Source of the DNA: a virus
Length of the DNA: 45,112 nucleotides
IMG/VR virus record: IMGVR_UViG_3300019758_000011
Location: 1-45,112 of that record
Direction: 5' to 3' (one strand)
Below are positions 26,309-45,112 of the stretch, piece after piece. Position 1 is the stretch's first letter; each line of letters begins with the position of its first letter. The position numbers and the translations under genes were made by a program. Below the pieces are notes generated by a model, which was given only the letters and a program-made list of their open reading frames with translations, did no database searches and had not been told where the DNA came from.

Positions 26309-27457
26309 ATGAACATTTCCATAAAATTGGATGGGAGAAAAACATCTCTCACAAAAGCTGGATTCCCAATTGTTTTTTATCTCAGCAAAAATAGTAAATT
26401 CAAACGAATTAAAACAGGATATTTTTCAGAACAAAAAAACTGGGATAAAAAGAACCAGATTCCTAAAAAATCACATCCAAATTTTATTGAGTTGCTAAAT
26501 TATTTAAGCAATAAAAAAATAAGAATTGGAAAGCTCCAGGAACAGTCAAAAACAGAGGCTTTAAATTTTCATTATGTTGAGAGATTTTTGCTCCAGAATG
26601 ATTCTGGAATTTTTTATCTGGAGGGCTTGAAATTGGAGGGAGTCTCCAGAACTTATAAAATTGCTTTAAACTCATTCCAAAAATACTTTCCAGATTACCC
26701 ATTTAAAATGATTACCAAAGAGATTGCTGAGGAATATATGAATTTACTTATAAATACTCCAACAGCTAACAATTTTAAACAGAGGAGTTCCAATGGAGTT
26801 ATTTCTTATATGAATACTTTGACAGCTGCCTGGAATAAATTAAAAAGACCAAACAATCCATTCTCTGCAATAAGACCAGCAGCAACCAGAACAAAAAACA
26901 AAGCAATGACTCCAGAGGATTTAATTAAGATTAAAAACTCTCCTATTGCTCCAGATGGAAACTCAAAAGGAGGAGGAGTTTACAATTACTTAAATTATTT
27001 TTTACTTTGTTTTTATTTGGGTGGAATTGATATGAATGACCTGGCTCATTCAAAATGGTCTGACGTTGTAGATGGGAGGCTGGAATTTACCAGGAGGAAA
27101 GGAGGAACCAATGTTTTTGTTTCAAATAAAATATTTCCAGAGGCAATGGAGCTCCTGGAGCAATATAATTGCAAACCTTATTTAATTCCTTTAATTTTAG
27201 AAAACAATTACAGAAATTTTATCCCAAATGTCTCCAGGAGGTTCCAGGATATTAAAGAGCAGCTCCAACTTTCAAAAAAGCCTTATTCAAAAGCTCCCAG
27301 ATATACTTTTATTACAAGAGCTCAACAGTTACTGATTGATGAGAGAATCACAGTTGAAATTGTAGGACATAAGCAACAGAGCACACATTCCATTTATAAG
27401 GATGAGTTTCCTTTCCATGTAAGAGATGAGGCTCATAAAAAGATAATTGGATTATAA
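26309..27457 (+). CDS. int: Phage integrase, tyrosine recombinase
   Basis: A 382-residue protein of the Bacteroidetes phage/transposon integrase type: an N-terminal arm-binding domain (residues 1-80), a SAM-like core-binding domain (about 95-180) and a catalytic domain (about 200-380). Catalytic R331 (APRYTFITRAQ), H354 (VGHKQQST) and nucleophile Y363 (HSIYKD) are visible, with a Lys in FTRRKGG. The first catalytic Arg, expected near residues 238-241, reads GGIDMNDL and is missing; a number of Bacteroidetes integrases vary here. It presumably integrates and excises the prophage at the adjacent attP. Confidence 0.84.
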   Translation: MNISIKLDGRKTSLTKAGFPIVFYLSKNSKFKRIKTGYFSEQKNWDKKNQIPKKSHPNFIELLNYLSNKKIRIGKLQEQSKTEALNFHYVERFLLQNDSGIFYLEGLKLEGVSRTYKIALNSFQKYFPDYPFKMITKEIAEEYMNLLINTPTANNFKQRSSNGVISYMNTLTAAWNKLKRPNNPFSAIRPAATRTKNKAMTPEDLIKIKNSPIAPDGNSKGGGVYNYLNYFLLCFYLGGIDMNDLAHSKWSDVVDGRLEFTRRKGGTNVFVSNKIFPEAMELLEQYNCKPYLIPLILENNYRNFIPNVSRRFQDIKEQLQLSKKPYSKAPRYTFITRAQQLLIDERITVEIVGHKQQSTHSIYKDEFPFHVRDEAHKKIIGL

Positions 27458-37685: not shown

Positions 37686-37746
37686 CTCTAACGGTTGAGT
37701 GTAAAAAATCGTTTTAATGTTTTTTACACTTTGTTACCAACAGTAC
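37686..37746 (+). repeat. attC-like site A
   Basis: R'' CTCTAAC (37686-37692), spacer GGTTG, L'' AGTGTAAAAAA (37698-37708), loop TCGTTTTAATG, L' TTTTTTACACT (37720-37730, perfect complement), spacer TT, R' GTTACCAACA (from 37733). Confidence 0.6.
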
Positions 37747-37772
37747 GGATTATTAACTTAAAAATTAAATAT

Positions 37773-37964
37773 ATGAAACGAGAATTAAAAGAAGGTGATT
37801 GGGTTGCTTATAATTGGTTAGACGATGAAGGTAACGATAATTGGAAAATAGGCAGAATTGTAGAAACCGAAACAAATGGATTAATGTACTTCAATGATGA
37901 TGGTACTGAAAGAAGTGGTTATATACCAATCACCAATGGCGTGAAATTACTGACTAACGATTAG
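37773..37964 (+). CDS. Cassette gene: small acidic protein
   Basis: A 63-residue acidic protein (MKRELKEGDWVAYNWLDDEGNDNWKIGRIVETETNGLMYFNDDGTERSGYIPITNGVKLL). The strand pattern and KEGDWVAY...WKIGRIVE suggest a small SH3-like barrel. An upstream in-frame codon at 37695 would lie in site A and is rejected. The whole gene lies between R' of site A and the complementary R'' of site B, exactly as a cassette gene should. An A+T-rich leader (ATTAACTTAAAAATTAAATAT) precedes the ATG. Confidence 0.66.
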   Translation: MKRELKEGDWVAYNWLDDEGNDNWKIGRIVETETNGLMYFNDDGTERSGYIPITNGVKLLTND

Positions 37965-38273
37965 TATTGTTGGTAACGGTTTGTGTATGAGTAGTAATAC
38001 TACGGATTTAATAACTAAAAATTAAAATAAAATGGATTACAAAATTGAAAACGAAAAAGTTAAAGATTTCTTTGAGGTGGTTGATGACCTTGAAAAACTA
38101 TTGACAGATAGAATAAGTGATTTGCACGAAGTAAAAGGCGGTATGCAAGCAAGACACGCTTACATTCTTTATAGAAAGCTGCTTTGGGAAGCTAAATATT
38201 TGATGAGAGATAACCTCAAAGAAATTAAAACGAAAAGTAAGTAGTATTATTACTTATACACATTGTTGTAAAA
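37964..38273 (+). repeat. attC-like site B, enclosing a gene
   Basis: R'' GTATTGTTGGTAAC (37964-37977), spacer GGTT, L'' at 37982-38003, L' at 38241-38262 (20 of 22 complementary), spacer TT, R' GTTGTAAAA (38265-38273). The loop holds the gene 38032-38244, whose stop codon lies in L'. Confidence 0.55.
38032..38244 (+). CDS. Cassette gene: small helical protein
   Basis: A 70-residue protein (MDYKIENEKVKDFFEVVDDLEKLLTDRISDLHEVKGGMQARHAYILYRKLLWEAKYLMRDNLKEIKTK). Mostly helical with a mixed charge pattern; no family recognised. It lies wholly between the L'' and L' arms of site B; its stop codon is in the first bases of the L' arm. A leader ACGGATTTAATAACTAAAAATT resembles that of the previous gene (ACGGATTATTAACTTAAAAATT), showing repeated upstream sequence. 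Confidence 0.62.
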   Translation: MDYKIENEKVKDFFEVVDDLEKLLTDRISDLHEVKGGMQARHAYILYRKLLWEAKYLMRDNLKEIKTKSK

Positions 38274-38421
38274 TCGTTTTAATGTTTTACAACGTTGTTG
38301 TGTATGCCACGTTGCGACTTTGAATAATAATTAAACTTAATAGAAATGGAAAAAGAAAGAGGAATTACAATAACTAATGTAGATAAGAAAAAGCAATGTG
38401 ATATACACGTTGTTACCACAC
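38265..38421 (+). repeat. attC-like site C and preceding 29-base mini-unit
   Basis: GTTGTAAAA (38265-38273), 11-base loop, TTTTACAAC (38285-38293; R'' of site C), spacer GTTGT, L'' TGTGTATGCCACG (38299-38311), L' TGTGATATACACG (38397-38409; about 9 of 13), spacer TT, R' GTTACCACAC (38412-38421). L' and R' lie inside gene 38346-38666. Confidence 0.5.
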
Positions 38422-38666
38422 GTTTTTCACCTGCAATTGCAGAAATGAAAGAAGCTATTCTTAATGACTTAAAAAAGTTAAGCAAAGGCTATGGTAAATT
38501 GAAATGGGCTATATCTAAAGATACTGAAATACCAGTTGATATATTAACTGTACTTCTTAAACAACTAAAATACGAGGGTAAAGTAGAATTAATAATGATA
38601 TGGTCTGAATCAACTGGTAAACCTGATGGTAGTGGTTATTGCTTAACTGGCAAATCATCACATTAA
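38346..38666 (+). CDS. Cassette-region gene: possible winged-helix protein
   Basis: A 106-residue protein (MEKERGITITNVDKKKQCDIHVVTTRFSPAIAEMKEAILNDLKKLSKGYGKLKWAISKDTEIPVDILTVLLKQLKYEGKVELIMIWSESTGKPDGSGYCLTGK). The part IPVDILTVLLKQLKYEGKVELIMIW...GYCL fits a small winged helix, so DNA binding is possible. The L' and R' boxes of site C code for residues 18-26 (CDIHVVTTR), so the gene straddles a putative cassette boundary. Its stop is 2 bases before R'' of site D. Confidence 0.62.
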   Translation: MEKERGITITNVDKKKQCDIHVVTTRFSPAIAEMKEAILNDLKKLSKGYGKLKWAISKDTEIPVDILTVLLKQLKYEGKVELIMIWSESTGKPDGSGYCLTGKSSH

Positions 38667-38668
38667 AT

Positions 38669-38810
38669 GTGTGGTAACGGTTTTGTATATAAAAAGTAGG
38701 CGTAGGAAGGTATGAACCACGGAAAGCCTAAACGACACACTAAAACAAGGACACTAGCCTTGAGATGTTACCAAGTGTCTAGCCTATTTTTTATATACAT
38801 TGTTAACTAC
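38669..38810 (+). repeat. attC-like site D
   Basis: R'' GTGTGGTAAC (38669-38678), spacer GGTTT, L'' TGTATATAAAAAGTAGGC (38684-38701), 80-base loop, L' at 38782-38799 (17 of 18 complementary), spacer TT, R' GTTAACTAC (38802-38810). Closest in form to a real attC (142 bp, no gene inside). Confidence 0.65.
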
Positions 38811-38869
38811 TGTTATTTTTGCGCGGTGGCAAATGGCGATAGCCAAATATTTATAAATTTTTTACTTTT

Positions 38870-38906
38870 TTATTTGTGTATACCGTATATATGTTATATA
38901 TTTGCA
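38870..38906 (+). promoter_or_regulatory. Internal promoter in the cassette region
   Basis: TTTGTG about 19 bases before TATATTTGC (38899-38907) gives good -33 and -7 elements of the Bacteroidetes type, 27 bases before the ATG at 38934. Confidence 0.5.
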
Positions 38907-38933
38907 CCAGTAATAACAACTAAAACATATATT

Positions 38934-39212
38934 ATGACAACTTACACAAACAAAAAAATAAAAACTGAAACTAAAACATTAGAAATATTAAGAGAAACTA
39001 AAACAAGCGTTTTTGTAAGACCCGATGATTGTAAGTTATGGAAAGACATTTGTATCTCTAAATCAAATTTGACTTTTATTAATAATGGAGTTGAGATATA
39101 TTTTGAATTATCATTTAAAAAAGTTTGGACTGAATCTAATTTTAAATTAAACGCTTTAGGTTTTGAGGGAAACTTAAACAGTAGAAAAAACAGTATGTTA
39201 ACATTTGTATAA
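38934..39212 (+). CDS. Cassette gene: hypothetical protein
   Basis: A 92-residue basic protein (MTTYTNKKIKTETKTLEILRETKTSVFVRPDDCKLWKDICISKSNLTFINNGVEIYFELSFKKVWTESNFKLNALGFEGNLNSRKN). ATG at 38934 is chosen because it follows a good promoter; an upstream extension would run through site D and give an improbable hydrophobic protein. It ends one base before the next gene and both fall between R' of site D and R'' of site E. Confidence 0.6.
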   Translation: MTTYTNKKIKTETKTLEILRETKTSVFVRPDDCKLWKDICISKSNLTFINNGVEIYFELSFKKVWTESNFKLNALGFEGNLNSRKNSMLTFV

Positions 39213-39213
39213 T

Positions 39214-39462
39214 ATGAGAAAAATAATAGATATAAAAGAGGAAGACTTACTGCCGTTAAAGATAATGGCAGCAAAGGCAGATAAGGACTTAAAAAACTAT
39301 ATTCAGGATTTAATTACAGACAAAGTAAATAGTAAAAATGCTTTTTTTTGTGACGGTTTTTTAGTTAATGGAGAAACAACTTGTACTAAACAATGTACTG
39401 GGTGCGAAAAATCATTATATAAACCCAAGTGGGCACGTTCTGCTTGGTGGCAAAAAAAATAA
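39214..39462 (+). CDS. Cassette gene: ribbon-helix-helix-like protein with Cys cluster
   Basis: An 82-residue protein. Residues 1-38 (MRKIIDIKEEDLLPLKIMAAKADKDLKNYIQDLITDKV) match the ribbon-helix-helix pattern of Arc/MetJ-type regulators and antitoxins (short strand, helix with LK-x-x-AA, then DLKNYIQDLI). The rest has a Cys cluster (FFCDGFLVNGETTCTKQCTGC) followed by basic and Trp-rich residues. It is the second gene of a two-gene cassette. No toxin is evident next to it; the preceding gene is a possible but unproven partner. Confidence 0.64.
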   Translation: MRKIIDIKEEDLLPLKIMAAKADKDLKNYIQDLITDKVNSKNAFFCDGFLVNGETTCTKQCTGCEKSLYKPKWARSAWWQKK

Positions 39463-39464
39463 TT

Positions 39465-39670
39465 GTAGTTAACGGATACGTATAAGGCTATTTGCGATTA
39501 ATAACAAAATAAAATATATAAAAATGAAAAGACCAATTTATGAGAGCATCGTCTATGACACAGGAAGCGAATTAGAAGATTTACGACTGTTTAGAAAAGA
39601 TATTGAAGATTATGCAGACTTTTTAGAAAAGGAACGAAATAAGCAATTAGCTTTATGCGAAGTTAGCAAC
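39465..39670 (+). repeat. attC-like site E, running into a gene
   Basis: R'' GTAGTTAAC (39465-39473), spacer GGATA, L'' CGTATAAGGCTATTT (39479-39493), L' AATTAGCTTTATGCG (39645-39659; 12 of 15), spacer AA, R' GTTAGCAAC (39662-39670). L' and R' fall within gene 39524-39781. Confidence 0.5.
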
Positions 39671-39781
39671 CAAAGGGAAACGTTTAATGCTTGGTTTGTT
39701 TATTTAGACGAATTATCGGAAAATGAATATGACAATCGGAGTATAACTGAACACGTTGAAGATTACCTAAAAAACATTTAA
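39524..39781 (+). CDS. Cassette-region gene: acidic hypothetical protein
   Basis: An 85-residue acidic protein (MKRPIYESIVYDTGSELEDLRLFRKDIEDYADFLEKERNKQLALCEVSNQRETFNAWFVYLDELSENEYDNRSITEHVEDYLKNI), helical throughout. No family recognised. Bases coding for about residues 41-49 (KQLALCEVSN) form the L' and R' boxes of site E, so this gene spans a putative recombination boundary, as do two others in the region. Stop 2 bases before R'' of site F. Confidence 0.58.
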   Translation: MKRPIYESIVYDTGSELEDLRLFRKDIEDYADFLEKERNKQLALCEVSNQRETFNAWFVYLDELSENEYDNRSITEHVEDYLKNI

Positions 39782-39783
39782 TG

Positions 39784-40228
39784 TTTGCTAACGAATACGA
39801 ATATGATTTGGCACGATAAAAAATAATATAAATTTTAATTAAAAACGATATGAAAGCAAAAAATTTAAGAGTAGGAAATTTAGTAAAGACAAATGAATTA
39901 GCTTGTAATGAAACCAAAGGTAGTATTTTAAAGGTTGCTGGTGTTGGTTTAGATGTTGATTTTACAAACGGCACTACACAAAATTACATAGGCATAGAAG
40001 GTATTAAATTAACACATAAACTACTAAAACAGTTTGGATTTGTAAAACAACAATGTTTCTTCTATTGCGAAGGTGTTTGTATTGAAGATGATTTTACTTT
40101 GGAAGGATTTGGCAAAGTACCTTTAAGATACGTGCATCAATTACAAAACTTATTTTTTGCGTTAACTGGGACTGAACTTGTATTAAAAGACAAAGTTAGT
40201 GCTTAATTATATGCGAAGTTATTGCAAG
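39784..40228 (+). repeat. attC-like site F, enclosing a gene
   Basis: R'' TTTGCTAAC (39784-39792), spacer GAATA, L'' CGAATATGA (39798-39806), L' TTATATGCG (40207-40215; 7 of 9), spacer AA, R' GTTATTGCAAG (40218-40228). The loop contains gene 39850-40206. Confidence 0.45.
39850..40206 (+). CDS. Cassette gene: Bacteroidetes small mobile-element protein
   Basis: A 118-residue protein (MKAKNLRVGNLVKTNELACNETKGSILKVAGVGLDVDF...IKLTHKLLKQFGFVKQ...KVPLRYVHQLQNLFFALTGTEL). The order LRVGNLV ... I-x-L-T-x-x-x-L-x-x-FGF ... R-YVHQLQNL-x-FALTG-x-EL is common in hypothetical proteins from Bacteroidetes phages, plasmids and islands. Function unknown. It fills the space between the L arms of site F. Confidence 0.66.
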   Translation: MKAKNLRVGNLVKTNELACNETKGSILKVAGVGLDVDFTNGTTQNYIGIEGIKLTHKLLKQFGFVKQQCFFYCEGVCIEDDFTLEGFGKVPLRYVHQLQNLFFALTGTELVLKDKVSA

Positions 40229-40330
40229 TAGAGCCACGTACTGATTGCGTGGCTATGCTTTAATCGGCTGTATTTGCTATAACTTTATAGAGCATAAAAT
40301 CGTTTTAATGTTTTATGCGCATAGTTAAGC
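40218..40330 (+). repeat. attC-like site G with gene-less 65-base unit
   Basis: Between R' of site F (40218) and R'' TTTGCTATAAC (40273-40283) is a unit with no gene but a perfect 7-bp hairpin, AGCCACG/CGTGGCT (40232-40254). Then GCATAAAA (40292-40299), loop TCGTTTTAATG, TTTTATGC (40311-40318) and R' GTTAAGC (40324-40330). Confidence 0.52.
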
Positions 40331-40443
40331 AACGTTGCTAAAAAAAGGGCTATTGGTTTGCAAAACCAAAATAACACATTTCGAATAAGTATAGAACAAG
40401 TTTAATTTAAAAATAAATGTAATACAAAATAAAAATTAAAGAT

Positions 40444-40571
40444 ATGGCGGTAGATAAAAAGAAGTATGGGAAATTATAGAAAATTACGCCCCTAATTTAT
40501 CAAATGAGATAGGATGGGGGAGTATGGATAGTTTATGTGATAATTTAATTGAATACATACAAGAAAAATAG
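40444..40571 (+). pseudogene. Frameshifted small gene
   Basis: ATG at 40444 reads MAVDKKKYGKL and stops. One extra A in the A5 run at 40456-40460 would give MAVDKKEVWEIIENYAPNLS... continuing for 42 residues to TAG at 40569-40571, followed after zero bases by another ATG. The shifted frame has good coding character. Either a true one-base deletion or a homopolymer sequencing error. Confidence 0.45.
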
Positions 40572-40643
40572 ATGGAAGCAACAATTATAATAATAGGATT
40601 TTTAATAGTACTACTTTTATTAGGTGGTGCAAACAATTATTAA
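40572..40643 (+). CDS. Tiny membrane peptide
   Basis: A 23-residue frame, MEATIIIIGFLIVLLLLGGA..., nearly all hydrophobic. It starts directly after the stop of the frameshifted gene, in a coupled arrangement. It is too short for firm support; toxin-like single-span peptides have this form, but nothing else points that way. Confidence 0.35.
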   Translation: MEATIIIIGFLIVLLLLGGANNY

Positions 40644-40673
40644 GTAACTAACAAAGTAACAAAGAAAGTAACT

Positions 40674-41090
40674 ATGAGAGAAATTAAATTTAGAGCAAAA
40701 AGAATTGACAACTGGGAGGTTGTCTATGGTTCTTATTTTTTTGAAAAAAATGTTGAGATTAAAAAAGAAGATTCGCAAGGCAACTTTATTGTTTGCGGTT
40801 ATGAAGATAAGCATTCAATTAAAGTTGATGAAAAAACAAAAGACGGTAAAGTATGGTGCGATATTGATTTTGAAACATTAGAACAGTTTACAGGTTTGAA
40901 AGATAAAAATGGAATTGAAATTTATGAAGGAGATGTTATTTCGGCAATAAATTTAGGACAAAATCACAAAATTATTTTTAAAGATTTTATGTGGTTTTGT
41001 AAACCAATTGAAATTAACTTTAACCACTACAATGGTATTTGTTTAAAAGAAGCAAATAGATACAAAAAAACAGAAATTATAATAATATGA
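40674..41090 (+). CDS. YopX family protein
   Basis: A 138-residue protein with the YopX signature: REIKFRAKRIDNWEVVYGSYFF at the start, then FTGLKDKNGIEIYEGDVI in the middle. YopX proteins are widespread in phages of Firmicutes and Bacteroidetes, and their role is unknown. This one uses GAA-rich, CG-containing codons like its cassette neighbours rather than the backbone. It overlaps the next gene by 4 bases. Confidence 0.85.
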   Translation: MREIKFRAKRIDNWEVVYGSYFFEKNVEIKKEDSQGNFIVCGYEDKHSIKVDEKTKDGKVWCDIDFETLEQFTGLKDKNGIEIYEGDVISAINLGQNHKIIFKDFMWFCKPIEINFNHYNGICLKEANRYKKTEIIII

Positions 41091-41329
41091 ATTACGCATT
41101 TGAAATACTAAACGAACAAAGAGATTTGTTAAGAGATGAAATTAGATTCGCTAAAGGTTTAGAATTAGAAAAATTAAAAAGTAAAATTAAAGATGTTGAT
41201 GAAGCCTTATTAAGTTTACAAAAACCAATTACTAAGTTTTATTGTAAAGATGAAAGTTATCACAAAATTGACAGATGTTCAACACAATGCCCTGACTGTA
41301 TAGAATTTACAAAAGGATTTAAAAAATAA
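41087..41329 (+). CDS. Cassette-region gene: coiled coil with Cys cluster
   Basis: An 80-residue protein: a charged helix (LNEQRDLLRDEIRFAKGLELEKLKSKIKDVDEALLSLQ) and a Cys-containing end (FYCKDESYHKIDRCSTQCPDCIEF). The C-terminal C...CSTQCPDC resembles CTKQCTGC in gene 39214-39462, hinting at a shared small metal-binding ending. It is coupled to the YopX gene by a 4-base overlap. Function unknown. Confidence 0.6.
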   Translation: MNYAFEILNEQRDLLRDEIRFAKGLELEKLKSKIKDVDEALLSLQKPITKFYCKDESYHKIDRCSTQCPDCIEFTKGFKK

Positions 41330-41361
41330 CCTTTATTAGCTAATAATGGTTGTTATTTTCA
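41324..41361 (+). repeat. Hairpin after YopX gene pair
   Basis: AAATAAC / GTTATTT outer arms with TTATTA-GC-TAATAA inside, and unpaired bases of two and five between, similar in shape to the cassette sites but with the longer spacer on the right. Possibly a degenerate site. Confidence 0.35.
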
Positions 41362-41400
41362 TCATTCTACGGTGTGAGTGGCAGCCCTTTTTTTAGTTAT

Positions 41401-41676
41401 GTTATTTAACGTAATTGTGTATGGCACGTTGCGGAATTAAACACTAACCTTAACAAATAAAACAATGATTAAATTACAAGAACAACCAATAGTAACTCCA
41501 GAAAAATACTTGTTTAGAACTTGGATTGACGGAAGTAAGATTATAAAAACTGAAAAAGGGGATATAACTGTGATGGAAATATTGACAGACTTTAGAAATC
41601 ACTTATTACAAGACCTTGAACATAACAAAAAAGCCTATGCCCAAAAGCAATGTGCTATACACGGTGTTGTGGATAG
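41401..41676 (+). repeat. attC-like site H, running into a gene
   Basis: R'' TTATTTAAC (41402-41410), spacer GTAAT, L'' TGTGTATGGCACGTTGC (41416-41432), L' GCAATGTGCTATACACG (41647-41663; 14 of 17), spacer GT, R' GTTGTGGATAG (41666-41676). L' and R' are inside gene 41465-41824. L'' resembles that of site C. Confidence 0.52.
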
Positions 41677-41824
41677 TATGCCTATGACAAAAGACTTTAT
41701 TAATAAACTTGAAAGTAAGATTGAAAACAACCATAAAGGTTTAGACCAACTTTCAAAAACGCAAATGCTATTGGGTGGAAAATACGCTTTTAGGATAATA
41801 AATGGCTTTAAAAAACAAGATTAA
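41465..41824 (+). CDS. Cassette-region gene: hypothetical protein
   Basis: A 119-residue, charged, helical protein (MIKLQEQPIVTPEKYLFRTWIDGSKIIKTEKGDITVMEILTDFRNHLLQDLEHNKKAYAQKQCAIHGVVDSMPMTKDFINKLESKIENNHKG). No family recognised. Codons for about residues 61-71 (KQCAIHGVVDS) form the L' and R' boxes of site H. R' is matched by R'' of site I just after the stop. It is the last small gene before the recombinase. Confidence 0.6.
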   Translation: MIKLQEQPIVTPEKYLFRTWIDGSKIIKTEKGDITVMEILTDFRNHLLQDLEHNKKAYAQKQCAIHGVVDSMPMTKDFINKLESKIENNHKGLDQLSKTQMLLGGKYAFRIINGFKKQD

Positions 41825-41831
41825 GGCATAT

Positions 41832-41852
41832 TATCTACAACTAATATATAGA
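41832..41852 (+). repeat. attC-like site I, left half
   Basis: TATCTACAAC (41832-41841) complements R' of site H at 9 of 10, followed by spacer TAATA. No convincing L' is seen; GTTAGTAAC at 42743-42751, after TT and beyond the recombinase gene, could be a matching R'. Confidence 0.38.
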
Positions 41853-41933
41853 AATAACACTTATTTAAACCTTTATTTTACTGGGTTTTTAATTAAATAA
41901 TCTTTAAAAAATAACAAAAACAAAAAGAACATC

Positions 41934-42731
41934 ATGAGAATAATTGACGTATATAAGCAAAAATTAAAATTTAAAAATTACTCTTTAAAAACTATTGAAA
42001 CTTACAGCTGTTATTTAAGTAAGTTTATTATTGATTTAAATATAAAAGACCCTTATCAAATAAGTTTAAAACAAATAAAAAATTACTTAGAAAATAAAGA
42101 GTATAGTTCAATTTCAAAACAAAATCAAATTATTGGAGCATTGAAATTATTTGCAAGATACATTTTAAATAAAAAGGATGTTCATTTAAAAAAGATTGAG
42201 AGACCAAAAAAAGAGAAAAAACTACCTTTAGTAATTGAATCAGATTTTTTAAAATACACTATAAATAATATTGAGAATTTAAAACACAAATCTATTATAA
42301 TGCTGGGTTTTGGATGTGCTATGAGAGTAAGTGAGGTTATTAATTTAAAAATTACTGATATTGACAGTAAAAGAATGTTAATTCACATAAGGAATGCAAA
42401 AGGTAAAAAAGACAGGATTGTTCCAATTTCAGAAAATATTTTAAAAACGTTAAGGAATTACTTTAAAAAATACAAGCCAGTTAATCATTTATTTAACGGG
42501 CAATTTAAAAACCAATATTCTGCCGAGAGCTGCAATAAAATAGTTAAAAAACATTTAGGAGCAAACTATCATTTTCATACACTCAGACACTCTGGAGCAA
42601 CTACAATGCATGAGAATGGAACGGATTTGGCTTTGATTCAAAAACTATTAGGGCATAACAATATAAAAACTACAATGATTTACACTCACATCTCACAAAA
42701 AGCAATACAAAATATTAGTTTACCAATTTAA
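41934..42731 (+). CDS. Second tyrosine recombinase, Xer-like
   Basis: A 265-residue protein with a SAM-like N-terminal domain (residues about 1-85) and a complete catalytic domain: R131 (GCAMRVSEV), Lys in NAKGKKDRIVPI (156-159), H215 and R218 (HFHTLRHSGAT), H241 (LLGHNNIKTT) and Y250 (MIYTHIS). It is short and lacks both an arm-binding domain and the extra helix typical of IntI, so it resembles XerC/D-type enzymes. It is the first gene beyond the cassette-like chain and is the obvious candidate to act on it. Codon use is intermediate between backbone and cassette genes. Confidence 0.86.
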   Translation: MRIIDVYKQKLKFKNYSLKTIETYSCYLSKFIIDLNIKDPYQISLKQIKNYLENKEYSSISKQNQIIGALKLFARYILNKKDVHLKKIERPKKEKKLPLVIESDFLKYTINNIENLKHKSIIMLGFGCAMRVSEVINLKITDIDSKRMLIHIRNAKGKKDRIVPISENILKTLRNYFKKYKPVNHLFNGQFKNQYSAESCNKIVKKHLGANYHFHTLRHSGATTMHENGTDLALIQKLLGHNNIKTTMIYTHISQKAIQNISLPI

Positions 42732-42921: not shown

Positions 42922-43134
42922 ATGTTATTGCTTAAACTTTTTTTAATCTGGTATTTAACAGGGTTTATTTTTTACCTGGTTTATCAGAGAGGTTCTGACT
43001 TTTATACAAAAGGAAATCTTATCACTTTATTTTTTACAGCTGTAATGGGATTGTTTATTCCATTGATTGTGCTGCTGGAGGAGCAACATTTCTCCTGGTG
43101 GGATGAGCCTTTGTTTAAGAAAAAAGCAAAGTAA
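42922..43134 (+). CDS. Two-span membrane protein
   Basis: A 70-residue protein with hydrophobic segments at residues about 2-22 and 33-54 (LLKLFLIWYLTGFIFYLVYQ; LITLFFTAVMGLFIPLIVLL) and an aromatic, charged tail (EEQHFSWWDEPLFKKKAK). Backbone codon use returns here. The HNH gene starts directly after its stop. Small membrane proteins before the terminase occur in many phages; function unknown. Confidence 0.58.
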   Translation: MLLLKLFLIWYLTGFIFYLVYQRGSDFYTKGNLITLFFTAVMGLFIPLIVLLEEQHFSWWDEPLFKKKAK

Positions 43135-44588: not shown

Positions 44589-45112
44589 ATGGATGTAACT
44601 GTCAAAAAAATAAGACCTCAAGAGGGTTATCAAATGAAAGCATTAAGCTCTCCAGCTGATATTGTTATCGGAGGAGGAGCAGCTGGAGCTGGTAAAACTT
44701 TCAGTTTATTATTAGACCCATTAAAGCACATAAAAAACCCAAATTTTGGAGGAGTTATTTTTAGGAGGACATCTCCTCAAATAAAAGTTGAGGGAGGTCT
44801 CTGGGACACATCTCTGGAGCTTTATAATGCTATTGGAGCAGCTCCAAAAGAATCCAACTCCTCCTGGGAATTTCCCTCTGGAGCAAAAATGAAATTCAAT
44901 CATTTAGAGTACGAAAAAAATATCCTGGACTGGCAAGGCTCTCAAATTCCTTTCCTGGGATTTGATGAGCTTACACATTTCACAAAGAAAATGTTTTTTT
45001 ATATGCTCTCCAGGAATAGGAGTGCTTGTGGGATTAAGCCTTATGTAAGAACAACATGCAATCCAGACCCAGAGAGCTGGGTTGCTGATTTGATTTCCTG
45101 GTGGATTGACCA
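44589..45112 (+). CDS. terL: Terminase large subunit, N-terminal part
   Basis: Residues 1-174 of a 500-residue protein that continues from base 124 of the window (bases 44990-45112 duplicate 1-123). The ATPase motifs are clear: Walker A GGGAAGAGKT at residues 28-37 and Walker B IPFLGFDEL with D126 and E127. ATG at 44589 is chosen because it abuts the terS stop; a second ATG four bases on is out of frame. This motor hydrolyses ATP to pump DNA into the procapsid through the portal. Confidence 0.93.
   Translation, partial: MDVTVKKIRPQEGYQMKALSSPADIVIGGGAAGAGKTFSLLLDPLKHIKNPNFGGVIFRRTSPQIKVEGGLWDTSLELYNAIGAAPKESNSSWEFPSGAKMKFNHLEYEKNILDWQGSQIPFLGFDELTHFTKKMFFYMLSRNRSACGIKPYVRTTCNPDPESWVADLISWWID
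44990..45112. repeat. Terminal overlap of circular assembly (right copy)
   Basis: Identical to bases 1-123. See the left copy for interpretation. Nothing is unique here; the duplicated bases encode terL residues about 134-174. Confidence 0.93.

Follow-up and report, generated by a model that had tools for sequence, protein, structure and literature searches.

The window, meaning the whole 45,112-nucleotide stretch of viral DNA analysed here (IMG/VR record IMGVR_UViG_3300019758_000011), contains an array of small genes that lies between phage genes and, downstream on the same strand, a tyrosine recombinase gene. Positions 1–123 and 44990–45112 are the same 123-base sequence, and the end junction is spanned by contig L124 at 100% identity, so the window represents a phage genome that is circular and complete. 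Boundaries placed by the AAC rule, read from the sequence and not from comparison with an empty site, would divide the array at 37693–41841 into eight cassettes; the crossover boxes end at 37692, 37977, 38293, 38678, 39473, 39792, 40283, 41410 and 41841. Each cassette would carry a crossover box R1 (...AAC↓, the arrow marking the crossover) and a box L″, with their complements, L′ and R2, located at other places within it.

37693–37977, + strand: predicted cassette 1, layout i; hairpin between L″/L′, then R2, an open reading frame (ORF) at 37773–37964 and R1 ending at AAC 37977; R2/R1 form a bracketing inverted repeat (37733–37755 / 37955–37977)
37705–37723, + strand: 19-base tip; stem GTGTAA/TTACAC (L″/L′); covariance-model score 75.9 bits
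37978–38293, + strand: predicted cassette 2, layout ii (swapped); ORF 38032–38244 between L″ and L′ (boxes 37982–38003 / 38241–38262), tip between R2/R1
38270–38288, + strand: 19-base tip; stem GTTGT/ACAAC (R2/R1)
38294–38678, + strand: predicted cassette 3; ORF 38346–38666, with the L′–R2 arm (about 38400–38421) inside it
38679–39473, + strand: predicted cassette 4, layout i; ORFs 38934–39212 and 39214–39462; a long terminal structure replaces the 19-mer
39474–39792, + strand: predicted cassette 5; ORF 39524–39781, with the L′–R2 arm (39650–39671) inside it
39793–40283, + strand: predicted cassette 6, swapped layout without the 19-mer; ORF 39850–40206
40284–41410, + strand: predicted cassette 7, layout i; ORFs 40674–41090 (YopX family) and 41087–41329
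40296–40314, + strand: 19-base tip; stem GCAT/ATGC (L″/L′); covariance-model score 61.9 bits
41411–41841, + strand: predicted cassette 8; ORF 41465–41824, with the L′–R2 arm (41650–41670) inside it
41834–41860, + strand: attI-like site TCTACAAC↓TAATATATAGAAATAACAC; crossover at the AAC ending at 41841
41934–42731, + strand: tyrosine recombinase of Xer/IntI type, 265 amino acids, without the IntI insert

In layout i, L″/L′ is capped by the tip and R2 and R1 flank the gene; layout ii exchanges the two, so that L″ and L′ flank the gene and R2/R1 is capped by the tip. Both fold to a single stem that carries gene and tip at opposite ends, and long-range partner boxes are found across the gene in the predicted direction at ratios of 28:4 (p = 7e-5) for layout i and 23:2 (p = 3e-5) for layout ii. 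A third form, seen in three cassettes of the window, has the L′–R2 arm within the gene, so that the translated product includes a portion of the recombination site (peptides QCDIHVV, LCEVSNQR and QCAIHGV). Base composition breaks at the array: ACG/CGT is very scarce and CTCC/GGAG abundant in the phage backbone, and the array at 37693–41841 is the opposite (ACG 11.6 per kb in the array versus 2.0 per kb in the backbone; CTCC/GGAG 1.7 versus 14.3 per kb). Most cassette proteins of the window have no near relatives among the loci compared, and a phage collection compared by DNA similarity gave only short matches to the window.

The integrase gene begins about 90 bases past the array end, placing an integrase, an adjoining attI-like site and a cassette array side by side as in an integron, and distinguishing the locus from a CALIN, which has no integrase nearby. 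By sequence and fold the closest proteins are archaeal XerA (4a8e, 5hxy) and the integron integrase IntI4 (2a3v). Scores of 158 bits against the IntI family TIGR02249 and 175.6 bits against the XerA family lie below the curated cut-offs of 265 and 220. The insert region near patch III has 36 residues compared with 84 in IntI4, demonstrating that the IntI-specific additional domain is missing. Residues R131, H215, R218, H241 and Y250 of the catalytic site are invariant among relatives and the structure model is confident (mean pLDDT 89.7); the protein is presumably an active recombinase. Relatives are encoded in at least 509 viral stretches, and in the integrase loci compared most have an attI-like motif, NTAAC↓TATTATATAT, some 30–70 bases 5′ of the gene, recognized by reading the upstream stretches (a strict regular expression missed most sites). 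Two further features of the window are a larger tyrosine integrase at 26309–27457 (382 amino acids, PHROG 1), separate from the array integrase, and a sub-threshold Rfam Lnt RNA match at 42925–42978 on the − strand (34.6 bits, gathering threshold 55) that is probably due to chance.

Conserved tip and covarying stems

The 19-mer AAAATCGTTTTAATGTTTT occurs as an exact match three times on the + strand, at 37705–37723, 38270–38288 and 40296–40314, as the initial annotation had reported. None of 100 shuffles contained three matches, even with three mismatches allowed. The same annotation had read the flanking stems as different yet complementary and had placed the hairpins at 37705 and 40296 between L″/L′ and the one at 38270 between R′ and R″, and both readings are accurate. 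Viral contigs carry the 19-mer in at least 120 stretches, compared with 9 for the letter-reversed 19-mer. Among the viral-contig matches listed, 105 of 129 copies are flanked by five or more bp of perfect complementarity; flanks of the reversed control are complementary over only 0–2 bp. The minimal core is CGTTTTAATG, retained even where the inner stem changes, and a single unpaired T lies 5′ of this core in 167 of 188 stems, a set selected mostly through the exact 19-mer.

To quantify stem conservation we used gapless alignments of 36 sites with the tip between L″/L′ and 42 sites with the tip between R2/R1. The L″/L′ alignment has 91.7% of cells paired and 61 double-changed cells, scoring 0.307 compared with 0.105 when shuffled and at most 0.098 in slid controls. 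The R2/R1 alignment has 16 GC to AU double changes, with most pairs invariant, and its 100% paired cells are partly a product of selection because rows were picked for a paired GTT/AAC stem. In neither layout did any of 500 shuffles reach the observed score, and replacing the right flank with that of another site destroyed most stems. The search of viral contigs and the covariation far above background thus bear out the initial proposal that compensatory change reflects a selected structure. Covariation, partner boxes and single-stranded DNA folds of the window's sites all show inverted R and L boxes folding into one single-strand stem, as attC sites do. The recombination sites of this phage cassette array are attC-like, and the repeated hairpin forms their apical tip.

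That the same 19-mer caps two different stems, of L and of R boxes, could also be explained if the tip were a tiny mobile or hitch-hiking insert, functionless and aimed at the centres of palindromes. Such an insert is very unlikely, as tip orientation is fixed though the stems are symmetric, and the inner stem around CGTTTTAATG varies with matching changes (GGC/GCC, GTGC/GCAC).

Position, strand and polarity of the tip

Integrase loci were gathered by protein sequence alone. In 78 of them there are 42 copies of CGTTTTAATG, all upstream on the integrase strand and 39 with complementary stems; none was found elsewhere in the loci, that is, on the other strand upstream or on either strand downstream (701 kb, both strands). 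A covariance model of the whole site gave 95 matches over 61 integrase loci tested, all but two of which (93) lay upstream and on the integrase strand, and at its threshold found no site in 31 of the 61. Position and strand are the same at 14/14 integrase loci of the hairpin-bearing set, and in four hairpin-selected loci the tip directly abuts the attI-like site. Chromosomal integrase matches from a longer family with no tip nearby (L289–L292) were set aside.

Interior stem mismatches are G–T in 30 cases and A–C in 7 (p = 2e-4), an excess indicating that the tip strand is the strand that folds. On viral contigs this is also the coding strand (107:3), and the cassette genes read towards attI both in the window and at 107/110 viral sites, opposite to the classical integron polarity, in which genes are read away from attI and have attC at their 3′ end. 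In named flavobacterial chromosomes, by contrast, the tip is antisense to genes at 14 of 18 sites (14:4, judged by the majority coding strand), a difference in gene polarity between the two settings with a Fisher p of ~1e-12. Tip strand relative to the crossover box, and hence box order, is kept in both. Gene direction mostly flips while box order is kept, so the tip follows the crossover strand rather than transcription.

These strand relationships bear on whether the hairpin acts as RNA, for example as a terminator or as a processing or stability element between small operon genes. The 107:3 bias towards the coding strand in viral contigs would suit such a role and G–U pairs are tolerated in RNA too, but flavobacterial-chromosome tips lie mostly antisense to genes with their strand relative to the crossover box retained, the A/T-rich stem is followed by no T tract, and Rfam searched at a relaxed E-value gave no relevant family for the hairpin. 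We consider an RNA role very improbable. The constraint looks like that on folded, recombining DNA, and the choice between DNA and RNA, which the initial annotation had left open when it identified a selected structure, is now tipped towards folded single-strand DNA by the strand evidence together with the exact cassette junctions of related phages.

Gene polarity is classical at most flavobacterial-chromosome sites (L146, L148, L159, L192, L199, L208 and other flavobacterial chromosomes). Lacinutrix integrases (L293, L294) have an attI-like TAACGTTTATATATACC 5′ of the gene, and these integrases and the flavobacterial chromosomal sites are a possible chromosomal counterpart of the phage system. 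Among genomes from the phylum to which an Aquimarina genome belongs, the site model matched 15/297, and among those from the phylum of an Aliivibrio genome 0/299, where absence is weak evidence because both scans used strict filters.

Cassette turnover and a proposed mechanism

Freya phage isolates infect one Polaribacter strain, and the paper describing them mentions neither integron nor cassette (PMC8776804). The ten isolate genomes, 43,978 to 48,920 bases long, vary by entire cassettes immediately 5′ of an integrase that is 38% identical to that of the window. Segment comparison of the Freya_10 region placed breakpoints after positions 501, 1343, 2245, 5136 and 5443, each exactly at ...AAC↓ and with identical flanks on both sides, and Freya_6 has a different cassette in the integrase-proximal place. 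Likewise, a methylase cassette is present or absent among Danklef phages (L309–L312) with its boundary exactly at AAC↓. In both groups the junctions put the crossover in the GTT/AAC of the R box, as in attC sites. The 19-mer tip is absent next to the integrase in the Freya arrays examined, and the Danklef integrase gene is truncated, yet its methylase cassette varies between isolates. These two observations suggest that another recombinase may act in trans or that the variation may be older; the Freya and Danklef comparisons document the cassette system, not the tip.

Variation in Danklef despite a broken integrase gene, and a RecT gene in Freya, would also fit ordinary repeats moved by homologous recombination through the RecT-like genes of these phages, with the integrase serving lysogeny only. 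However, the junctions are exact to the base in two phage species and share only ~3–4 bases (AAC), less than homologous recombination requires, and in the window lysogeny could be served by the larger integrase at 26309–27457. We therefore regard homologous recombination as highly improbable.

Our preferred reading, which we hold with considerable confidence, is that the 19-mer is the terminal tip of attC-like sites and that these belong to an integron-like system of cassettes carried by phages, in which the integrase inserts and excises cassettes at AAC↓; it draws directly on the structure and its covariation, the position and strand of the tip, the attI motif and the exact gain and loss of cassettes in relatives. 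When the integrase-coding strand is single or extruded, R1–L″ would pair with L′–R2 to form a double-stranded recombination core, its stem closed by the gene at one end and by the tip at the other. The phage integrase, presumably including that of the window, would then recombine this folded core either with the attI motif immediately 5′ of the integrase gene or with some other site, so that a cassette enters or leaves exactly at AAC↓. The tip would most likely help the correct strand to fold and mark that strand, and may bind the integrase or a host protein. Bacteroidota phages thus probably share a widespread integron-like system in which their own small integrase adds or drops small genes one cassette at a time.

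Integrons are rarely reported in phages and in Bacteroidota, and our results point to a common, self-sufficient phage version with cassette turnover visible between isolates of one bloom. Such a system would explain much of the small-gene variation, methylases included, in marine flavobacterial phages.

Comparison with known integrons

Within the open-access literature, preprints excluded, we looked for phage integrons that have an integrase of this type of their own, and the only close work was Qi 2023 (PMC9892861). As far as its accessible part goes, that paper records attC sites and CALINs in phages and a pair of Polaribacter phage P12002L attC sites tried with IntI1, one of which, P12002L_attC2, recombined; the same part describes neither a tip nor cassette turnover, nor a phage integrase of this type dedicated to such sites. 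Between the methyltransferase genes of P12002L lie an exact copy of the 19-mer and another CGTTTTAATG hairpin, and which of these sequences is attC2 was assigned from position. This CALIN therefore has two sites of the same type as those of the window but differs in that its genome has no integrase match. The open-access literature yielded no description of a conserved tip, an integrase without the IntI domain, reversed gene polarity, a swapped gene and tip layout, or isolate-level cassette turnover. IntegronFinder 2.0 found few complete integrons in Bacteroidetes (PMC9024848).

Like classical attC sites of class 1 integrons and Vibrio superintegrons, the phage sites have two inverted box pairs, an unpaired spacer and a terminal structure. 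As in classical integrons, the crossover is at AAC/GTT, one folded strand is preferred and cassettes are added next to attI beside the integrase. Fold and catalytic residues of the array integrase are those of IntI (2a3v) and XerA (4a8e, 5hxy), from which it differs in falling under both curated cut-offs and lacking the IntI-specific domain. The terminal structure of classical attC sites is highly variable (PMC8352920, PMC2727003), whereas the phage tip is a conserved sequence; phage genes, unlike those of classical integrons, point towards attI, and in some phage cassettes gene and tip are swapped. The system allows two questions to be tested directly: whether folded-strand recombination requires the IntI-specific domain, and what role a conserved terminal tip plays. 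On balance we lean towards a separate integron class in Bacteroidota phages, set apart by a compact integrase without the IntI domain, conserved-tip sites, reversed polarity, swapped cassettes and rapid turnover of accessory genes in natural populations.
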